Source of the DNA: Candidatus Latescibacterota bacterium | GTDB taxonomy: Bacteria; JAAXHH01 | Assembly: GCA_022821085.1 (NCBI GenBank) | Contig: JAJEEG010000006.1 | Coordinates: forward strand, 186,001-250,000 | DNA: 64,000 nucleotides | Direction of reading: 5' to 3' | Shown here: in pieces, positions 15,226-58,248 of the stretch | How the letters are laid out: every line of letters begins with the position of its first letter | Numbering within the stretch: the stretch's first letter is position 1 | The notes under the pieces: model-generated | Database searches by the model: none | Told to the model about the DNA's origin: nothing | Seen by the model: the letters and a program-made list of their open reading frames with translations, nothing else | Translations under genes and position numbers: made by a program

Positions 15226-16677
15226 TCATTCGGGTGTCATCCGAGCGCCGAGCCGCTCCTCGACGAGCCGCTCCGCCGCGTTCCAGTCGACCTGGTCCGC
15301 CGTGGAGATGGAGGCGCAGAGCTCCCGGAGGATGCCTTCCTGGATCTCGCCGCTGTGCAGGGCCTCGCGGTAAGGGAACCGGTGGAACGACACCATGGAA
15401 TACCGCGGGATGAACCGGTCGGGATACTTTCGTTCCAGCAGGAATCCCACCTTCTGCCGCAACTGAAAGCCCGGGTCGCTCACCAGGTCGCGCATCTCGA
15501 CGTAGTTGGCCAGCGCCATGTCGGCGATGGCATCCGTGTCTTCCTTTCTTCGGTGCCCGAAGGACTCGAATACACGGCCCCAGTCCGGCCAGTGCGTCTC
15601 GATACATTCGTCGAGGATGGTGCAGTCTTCGAACGCGCAGTTCATCCCCTGGCCGAAGAAGGGCACGATGGCGTGCGCGGCGTCACCCAGGAGCAGCACC
15701 CGGTCGCGGTAATGCCAGGGAAAACACTTGAGGGTGACCAGGGACCCGGTGGGATTGTCGCGGTACAGGGTGGTCAGATCGGGCATCAGCGCCGTCGCAT
15801 CGGGGAACTGCAACTTGAAGAAGTCCAGGATCCGGCGCGGGTCCTTGAGACTGCCAAAACTGTACTCGCCTTCGTGGGGGAAGAAGAGGGTGCAGGTGAA
15901 ACTGCCGTCCAGGTTGGGCAGCGCGATGAGCATGTACATGCCCCGCGGCCAGATATGGAGGGCATTGCGCTCCATCCGGTACGCGCCGTCCGGTCCGGCG
16001 GGAATGGTCAGTTCCTTGTATCCATGGGTCAGGTACTGCTGGGAGAGATCGAACCGGCCCACGTTCATCATGGCGGTCCGAATGGCCGAGGCCGAGCCGT
16101 CCACGCCGATGACCCGGTCGGGGCGGAGGGAGTGGACGTGATTGGTCGCGTCGTCGCGGACGTACAACACGCCGGTGCGAAATTCCAGCCCGGTGCACCG
16201 GGCGTTGAAATGCAGCCGCACACCGTCCTGCCGTTCCGCGGCGCTCAGCAGGTACCGGTTCAGTTCGCCGCGGGAAACGGAATAGATGACCTCGTTCTCC
16301 CGCTGGCCGTAGGGCTGCAGGACCCGGTCGCCTTCCACGGGATGGATCAGCCGGCCCACCATGGGTATCGCCATGGCCAGGACTTCGTCTTGCAGGCCTG
16401 CCTGCCCCAGCGCATGAAGGCCCCGCGCCGACATGGCCAGATTGATCGACCGGCCGGCCTGGCCCGCCTGGCCGGCCTGGCCCGCCTGGCCCGCCTGGCC
16501 CGCCTGGCCCGCCTGGTCCGCCTGGCCCGCCTGGCCCGCGCCGGACGGTTCGCGGCGGATATCTGACCGTTTCTCGTACACCTCGACCCGGAATCCGCGG
16601 CGGGCGAGGAAGATCGCCAGCAGGGATCCGGCAAGGCCCGCGCCGATCAGGGTGATGGTTTCCCGTTTGACGCCCAT
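15226..16677 (-). CDS. kmo: Kynurenine 3-monooxygenase with inserted (GQA)n tract
   Basis: 483-residue FAD monooxygenase that hydroxylates L-kynurenine. The FAD-binding GAGLAGS is at residues 12-18, GRSINLAMSARG at 75-86 and the second FAD motif GDAAHAIVPFFGQGMN further on. Between YEKR and GRSINLA the protein carries nine tripeptides (eight GQA, one DQA; residues 48-74) where relatives have a short loop. They are encoded by nine 9-bp units. ATG 16677 is chosen because GAGGG lies five bases before it and the protein starts at MGVKRETITLIGAG. The open frame upstream is the neighbouring repeat array. Confidence 0.93.
   Translation of the reverse strand: MGVKRETITLIGAGLAGSLLAIFLARRGFRVEVYEKRSDIRREPSGAGQAGQADQAGQAGQAGQAGQAGQAGQAGRSINLAMSARGLHALGQAGLQDEVLAMAIPMVGRLIHPVEGDRVLQPYGQRENEVIYSVSRGELNRYLLSAAERQDGVRLHFNARCTGLEFRTGVLYVRDDATNHVHSLRPDRVIGVDGSASAIRTAMMNVGRFDLSQQYLTHGYKELTIPAGPDGAYRMERNALHIWPRGMYMLIALPNLDGSFTCTLFFPHEGEYSFGSLKDPRRILDFFKLQFPDATALMPDLTTLYRDNPTGSLVTLKCFPWHYRDRVLLLGDAAHAIVPFFGQGMNCAFEDCTILDECIETHWPDWGRVFESFGHRRKEDTDAIADMALANYVEMRDLVSDPGFQLRQKVGFLLERKYPDRFIPRYSMVSFHRFPYREALHSGEIQEGILRELCASISTADQVDWNAAERLVEERLGARMTPE
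16457..16537. repeat. 9 x 9-bp minisatellite inside kmo
   Basis: Nine units in perfect register, consensus GGCCCGCCT on the plus strand (written from phase GCCTGGCCC at 16457). Two units differ by one base. They read Gly-Gln-Ala in kmo, with one unit reading Asp-Gln-Ala. The length keeps the frame open at any copy number. Confidence 0.97.
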
Positions 16678-16714
16678 GAGAACCCTCGATTGCTTCCGGA
16701 CCGGTACGAAAACA

Positions 16715-57463: not shown

Positions 57464-58248
57464 TCCTTCGACTCCTCATCGTGCTCAATGCCGCCGGTCG
57501 CCTCGCCGCTTCCGGACGCCTCGCCGCTTCCGGACGCCTCCCCTCCATGTCCGGTCAACGCGTGGAAGGACGCTTCAAGCGATCCGCCGCGGCGCAGGTC
57601 GGCGGGCGGGCCATCGAAGACCAGCTTGCCCTCGTTGATCAAGAGAACGCGGTCGGCGATGAGATCCACTTCCTGCAGGATGTGGGTGGAAAGAAGGATG
57701 GTCCTGGTCTGCCCGAGCAGACGGATATCCTGGCGGAAGTCCCGGATCTGGTTCGGATCGAGCCCGGCGGTCGGTTCGTCCATGATGAGCACGTCGGGGT
57801 CGTGGAGCAACGCCTGCGCCAGGCCGACCCGCTGCTTGTTGCCCCGGGACAGCTTGTCGATGGGCTTTTCAAGCGCCTCGTGCAGGCCGCACCGGTCGAT
57901 GACGTAGTCCAGGCGCTCGGACAGCCGGAGCCGATCGAGACCACGGGCCTCGCCGAAGAACCGCAGGAGTTCCAAGGGCGTCATGTTCTGGTACAGCGGA
58001 CCGTTCTCCGGGAGGTATCCAAGGCGCCTCGACATGGCGAGGCGGTCGCGTCTGACGTCGAGTCCGGCGATGGCCGCGGTGCCCGCGCTCGCGCCCAGGT
58101 AGCCGCTGAGGATCTTCATCGTCGTGGACTTGCCCGCGCCGTTCGGTCCGAGGAAGGCCACGATCTGCCCCTCGGGTATGGTAAAGGAGATGTCTTGCAC
58201 GGCAACGAAGGAACCGTAGAATTTGCTCAGGCCCTTCGCCTCGATCAT
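57460..58248 (-). CDS. gldA: ABC transporter ATP-binding protein GldA
   Basis: 262 residues. Walker A GPNGAGKSTT, signature LSRGNKQRVGLAQALLHDP, Walker B VLIMDEPTAGLDP, and the switch HILQEVD. It powers the GldFG permease that follows it. ATG 58248 is chosen since GGGAAAA precedes it. The C-terminal tail GSGEASGSGEATG is repeat-encoded and probably disordered. The divergent promoter 58341-58370 drives the operon gldA-gldFG-DUF4340-ThDP enzyme. Confidence 0.9.
   Translation of the reverse strand: MIEAKGLSKFYGSFVAVQDISFTIPEGQIVAFLGPNGAGKSTTMKILSGYLGASAGTAAIAGLDVRRDRLAMSRRLGYLPENGPLYQNMTPLELLRFFGEARGLDRLRLSERLDYVIDRCGLHEALEKPIDKLSRGNKQRVGLAQALLHDPDVLIMDEPTAGLDPNQIRDFRQDIRLLGQTRTILLSTHILQEVDLIADRVLLINEGKLVFDGPPADLRRGGSLEASFHALTGHGGEASGSGEASGSGEATGGIEHDEESKE
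57500..57535. repeat. 2 x 18-bp repeat at the GldA C-terminus
   Basis: The unit GCCTCGCCGCTTCCGGAC occurs at 57500-57517 and 57518-57535 exactly. It encodes the repeated SGSGEA tail and keeps frame. Confidence 0.95.

Follow-up and report, generated by a model that had tools for sequence, protein, structure and literature searches.

Short tandem arrays of one 9-bp unit, with the consensus CYGGWCCGC, occur within unrelated genes and between genes of the genome to which the window (the whole 64-kb stretch of DNA analysed here) belongs, and they are probably genus-specific minisatellites that are born locally at GGWCC-like seeds, change in length by stepwise slippage and are retained where they are tolerated. 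We observed directly an excess of these arrays over chance, a consensus shared among their units, readings of the unit in several frames, restriction to one genus and length changes in steps of 9 bp. The genome (G000) comprises 3.75 Mb in 7 contigs, and the genome statistics cover 1.65 of the 3.75 Mb, plus parts of congeners.

Arrays in the window and in the genome

Tandem Repeats Finder (TRF) was run on the window, and the periods, copy numbers and percent matches given below are taken from it. The arrays and the genes around them are as follows.

15226..16677, - strand: host gene kmo, kynurenine 3-monooxygenase
16452..16539, - strand: 9-bp array inside kmo, unit GGCCCGCCT on the + strand; 9.8 copies, 93% match (TRF)
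16712..16797: degenerate 9-bp tract spanning the end of kynU and the kynU-kmo gap; only 2.2 copies pass TRF
16772..18058, - strand: kynU, kynureninase
38735..41908, + strand: open frame with two arrays, encoding a Ser/Thr protein kinase that has WD40-like (PD40) repeats; the true start is probably downstream of 38735
39299..39334, + strand: kinase site 1, a Gly/Pro/Asp-rich array of period 9/18 bp within the region of the kinase domain (TRF)
40740..40788, + strand: kinase site 2, 9-bp array, unit GGCTCGTCC, encoding (Gly-Ser-Ser)n; 5.4 copies (TRF)
43721..44749, - strand: glycosyltransferase family 9 (GT9) gene; its probable start codon, the ATG at 44749, is downstream of the array
44766..44834: two different 9-bp units, GCCTGGACT and GGTCCGTCC, in sub-arrays that adjoin each other within the intergenic gap 44750-44850 (TRF)
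44851..46035, - strand: rlmN-like radical SAM methyltransferase gene, flanking the intergenic array on its upstream side
53292..54743, - strand: host gene, DUF4340 protein
53585..53712, - strand: degenerate 9/18-bp array, Gly-rich (GGSGGT) loop in the DUF4340 gene; TRF span 53627-53696, best period 18 bp, 9 bp also called
57460..58350, - strand: host gene, ABC transporter ATP-binding protein
57494..57540, - strand: 18-bp array, GSGEAS repeats, C-terminal tail of the ABC-transporter ATPase (GldA-like) (TRF)

TRF thus recovered the arrays that the initial annotation had described in kmo, at the two kinase sites, beside the GT9 gene, in the DUF4340 gene and at the end of the GldA-like gene. The last of these had been presented as an 18-bp relative of the family; the array itself is real, with a putative kinship to the 9-bp units. 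The array described as a coding GT9 leader lies instead between the GT9 and rlmN-like genes, in a gap of 101 bp, and its length differences among congeners are not multiples of 3, which argues that it is non-coding. Two further tandem repeats in the window, of 22 and 24 bp (30950-31003 and 63540-63592, TRF), are unrelated to the 9-bp family.

In the 1.65 Mb of G000 we found 79 period-9 arrays at a TRF score of at least 50, compared with 1, 0, 0, 0 and 0 in five codon-shuffled copies of the same DNA, in which codons were shuffled within 40-codon windows and local codon composition was kept. A copy of 859 kb generated with an order-4 Markov model contained no period-9 array at this score, and DNA from other phyla, taken from the surroundings of kmo, contained none in 194 kb of at least 60% GC and one in 235 kb of 50-60% GC. 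The arrays are therefore not at the frequency of random GC-rich coding DNA; they repeat a short unit head to tail more often than chance would give, which makes them minisatellites. Tandem repeats in general are also elevated in this genome, with 572 rows in all versus 20-37 in codon-shuffled copies, and the excess extends over periods of 12-36 bp.

When 68 array units were aligned across all rotations and both strands, the consensus reached 7.86 bits, against 4.0 bits (maximum 4.4) for random genomic 9-mers and 5.0 bits (maximum 5.15) for shuffled units, so that the units of the 1.65 Mb do share a consensus. Derived from 98 arrays, it reads CYGGWCCGC, or GGWCCGCCY on the same circle, close to the pattern GGyyCGyCy proposed earlier, and the family repeat is written (GGTCCGCCT)n. 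Motif matches per kb were 90 in arrays of period 9, 62 at period 27, 34 at periods 18 and 36, and 12-24 at other periods; 37% of the 18-bp arrays are internally 9-bp repeats (lag-9 identity of at least 0.5), versus a background of 1%. Each array carries its own variant of the consensus, neighbouring units within an array are only slightly more similar than distant ones, and single copies of the 9-mer are not over-represented outside arrays in G000. The orientation of arrays relative to GC skew is uneven (counts 32/29 and 11/26). GGGCC/GGCCC is the most under-represented 5-mer in G000 (3242 seen versus 4254 expected), and this avoidance could be the reason why GGWCC has a W at its centre.

Genus restriction and turnover at orthologous sites

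The distribution of the unit was followed with the dimer GGWCCGCCYGGWCCGCCY, allowing up to one mismatch and counting each of the overlapping matches within one array. All 12 genomes of the genus contain it, with 32-183 matches per genome. The four further genomes from the same family and order have 0-2, and among 272 others the highest count is 19, in a genome of 9.2 Mb. The two relatives that were measured, G013 and G015, are less GC-rich, about 53%, and this could contribute to the scarcity there, although no high-GC control comes near the counts of the genus. The 9-bp unit is a genus-wide signature, confined to the genus among the genomes searched. The closest relatives of G000 are Latescibacterota assemblies, some of which are recorded as Gemmatimonadetes. 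Latescibacterota of this kind are known from marine sponges, in a paper in which tandem repeats do not appear (PMC12993501).

Turnover was compared between species, using 12 arrays with alignable flanks in the congener G001 (83-93% identity). Only 1 of the 12 arrays had the same length in G001, versus 79 of 83 random 48-bp control segments, and 8 of the 11 length changes were multiples of 9. Close relatives, which are different species, therefore differ in whole-unit copy number, and the arrays are variable-number tandem repeats (VNTRs) in this sense. Across orthologous sites the range runs from no insert, or 1-2 units, up to about 10 units, which supports the earlier proposal that a similar unit has been born repeatedly. 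At kinase site 1 the insert is missing or very short in G006, G007 and G008, and at kinase site 2 G000 carries a clean insertion of 45 bp (5 x 9) that G001 and G008 lack. The GSGEAS tail is missing in G002 and G006. The intergenic array beside the GT9 gene is a hypervariable repeat tract in the six congeners examined, and the DUF4340 array varies in length across six congeners. The array annotated at the kynU/kmo junction (16715-16795) is weak in G000, but clear 9-bp arrays stand at this site in G001, G002 and G003; in G004, G007 and G011 it holds 33-34 non-repetitive bp. At C1:506024, 99 bp differ by presence or absence from G001 with no clear seed. Birth may be saltatory, since there are sites at which the congener compared has neither an insert nor a clear seed.

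The kmo array offers the clearest history. One or two units are found in eight congeners, about 10 degenerate units in G008 and about 10 near-identical units in G000; the array was born from a local seed and recently expanded in G000. It encodes (Gly-Gln-Ala)n at residues about 44-73, and the invariant RSINLA motif follows immediately. In all other respects Kmo looks like a normal kynurenine 3-monooxygenase, in which the array aligns as a pure insertion relative to solved KMO sequences. The AlphaFold model has a mean pLDDT of 84.8 with the array (residues 44-75) below 50, the loop itself at 21-43 within an otherwise confident prediction. The model thus supports a predicted disordered loop that the enzyme would tolerate.

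A hypervariable Gly-rich insert was also seen in the MutS gene (L240; G000:C3 about 94.9-97.6 kb), in the linker before the C-terminal YQLSLF segment. Among the orthologs (L246-L256) it is long in G000-G003 and G008, short in G004, G007, G009 and G011, and absent from other genera.

Origin of the arrays

The hosts are unrelated everyday genes, among them kmo, the kinase and the DUF4340 gene. By placement, 67 of the 98 arrays are inside genes, 19 at gene junctions and 12 adjoin non-coding DNA; the gene calls came from a home-made codon-usage HMM, so the junction placements may be inflated. One DNA unit is read in several ways (ADQ/GQA, GPG/GGP, GPP, RPV, RTG) or is untranslated, and the 33 Gly-X-Y arrays, the 34 other coding arrays and the 31 non-coding or junction arrays have a common consensus. 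The shared pattern thus resides in the DNA rather than in a repeated peptide. The exact GGWCC core is found in 58% of non-coding or junction arrays, versus 33% of the Gly-X-Y and 26% of the other coding arrays. Selection at the protein level, by which the arrays would be collagen-like Gly-X-Y tracts or flexible linkers whose DNA likeness comes from codon usage, would account for the 33 of 67 in-gene arrays that read Gly-X-Y, for those within true collagen-like proteins and for the Gly-rich inserts of Kmo, the kinase and the DUF4340 protein. It is nevertheless very improbable, given that the other 34 in-gene arrays read the unit in other frames (ADQ, RPV, RTG), that elsewhere it is untranslated, that the core is most exact in the non-coding or junction arrays, and that arrays vanish on codon shuffling with local composition kept. 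Collagen-type selection as the cause was accordingly rejected on the multiple frames and the non-coding arrays.

Outside arrays, exact 9-bp dimers are in excess in G000 (71 versus 15 expected), and these lone dimers are mildly biased towards the motif (18% versus 6%). Together with the 9-bp steps, the local seed and the unit variants private to each array, this excess points to replication slippage, and we infer that slippage is the process at work. The motif may raise the likelihood of slippage; the monomer is not over-represented outside arrays, so this preference is without independent support at the level of seeds. A short pre-existing stretch of the GG-N-CC type would be duplicated by replication slippage, giving birth to an array, which would then quickly gain and lose 9-bp units and diverge through point mutation and duplication of 18-bp or larger blocks. 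Within genes, arrays would persist where the protein accommodates the additional residues as a disordered loop, a linker or a tail and the reading frame yields residues that are small or polar (Ala-Asp-Gln, Gly-Gln-Ala, Gly-Pro-Gly, Gly-Ser-Ser); outside proteins, they would be kept where the spacer tolerates them. Growth or shrinkage by nine letters lengthens floppy protein loops without breaking the gene, and the frame neutrality noted earlier is supported within genes.

Two alternatives propose a more active agent. Template switching, gene conversion or a cryptic mobile element could copy the units of one array into other places and so spread one consensus. The single consensus across genome and genus is what such seeding would produce, and so are the cleanly empty sites, where the differences are 45, 72 or 99 bp. 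Yet non-self matches exist for only 17 of the 196 array flanks, one pair of which is a 99% identical duplicated collagen-like gene while the others, among the matches listed, resemble repeat tracts; the kmo unit is already present at 1-2 copies in congeners, and each array has a private unit variant. Seeding is therefore very unlikely. The collagen-like repeat regions themselves (G000:C1:294414-294608 and G000:C5:19467-19645), with right flanks 99% identical, are a recent duplication. A motif-directed nuclease or transposase, making a 9-bp staggered cut on palindromic GGWCC and leaving 9-bp duplications as repair or excision footprints, appears highly unlikely. The core is indeed palindromic with a step of 9 bp, which is the target duplication size of several transposases, 9-bp dimers exceed those of other lengths, and the arrays are genus-restricted. 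No such enzyme was identified, however: the motif-relevant candidates examined were a C5-cytosine methylase and Vsr, both are missing from several array-bearing congeners, and most lone 9-bp dimers do not fit the motif. Of the initial annotation's interpretation, then, repeated birth and slippage at a preferred sequence stand, the latter as the best-supported reading from the 9-bp steps, the local seeds of kmo and flanks that are not carried along, while spread by seeding does not, given the flank matches and the monomer frequency.

Other candidates were rejected. Hairpin-stabilised slippage was assessed by ranking the folding stability of the repeat strand against permuted units, and the mean percentile was 0.60 for array units versus 0.58 for random genomic 9-mers. 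A canonical G-quadruplex motif is present in 22 of 98 arrays, and 48 units carry it versus 47.8 expected from permuted units. An uptake sequence or highly iterated motif does not fit a monomer at background frequency outside arrays, and the same applies to a mobile repeat (MITE/REP), for which there were also no shared flanks beyond the duplicated gene pair and repeat tracts. Loss of MutS finds no support, as all 12 genomes have the gene, although in two draft assemblies it is partial or divided between contigs. Vsr and C5-methylases were discarded as drivers because they are patchily distributed across the genus. G000 has two C5-cytosine methylase and Vsr pairs (G000:C1:664741-670319 and 2107260-2108748), found in only part of the genus.

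Related repeat systems and implications

In Xanthomonas and Nostoc, dispersed heptameric repeats of the GGGNATC type have 7-bp units and are mostly intergenic and quadruplex-forming (PMC4692102). Like them, the 9-bp family is lineage-enriched, with one consensus genome-wide and variable copy number (PMC4692102); unlike them, it is mostly in genes (67 of 98 arrays), with no quadruplex excess over permuted units. The TAACTGA direct repeats of Beggiatoaceae and cyanobacteria, also 7 bp, are intergenic just upstream of start codons, patchy across phyla and interpreted as a regulatory binding site (PMC4679880). They share with our arrays the use of one short tandem unit, in their case at well over a hundred genome sites (PMC4679880), whereas the 9-bp family is in-gene and confined to one genus among the genomes searched. 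Mycobacterial PGRS (consensus CGGCGGCAA) is similarly a GC-rich 9-bp in-frame unit with a Gly-rich reading and variable length. PGRS is found chiefly in one gene family, PE_PGRS, in contrast to the unrelated ordinary hosts described here, and its unit is different. Gly-X-Y triplets give a 9-bp period in bacterial collagen-like proteins as well, and real collagen-like genes are also present in G000, but half of the in-gene 9-bp arrays are not Gly-X-Y, and many form short loops within enzymes of the cytosol. Dispersed short tandem repeats specific to a genus are a known kind, from which the present family departs in its unit length, its in-gene location and its unrelated hosts.

A continuing motif-specific 9-bp duplication activity in the genus, whether an enzyme or a replication trait, that varies loop length in essential cytosolic proteins is conceivable but doubtful. 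If true, it would be a lineage-specific mutational process diversifying loops genome-wide.

These arrays are a natural case of one short DNA motif expanding repeatedly within many unrelated, mostly cytosolic proteins, so that a comparison of orthologous sites can reveal both the bias of mutation and the tolerance of the proteins. The preference of one genus for one 9-bp unit becomes a testable question, and loop insertions in these genomes should be taken with caution, as reflecting mutation before function. For uncultured sponge symbionts, the arrays may also be of use as strain markers.
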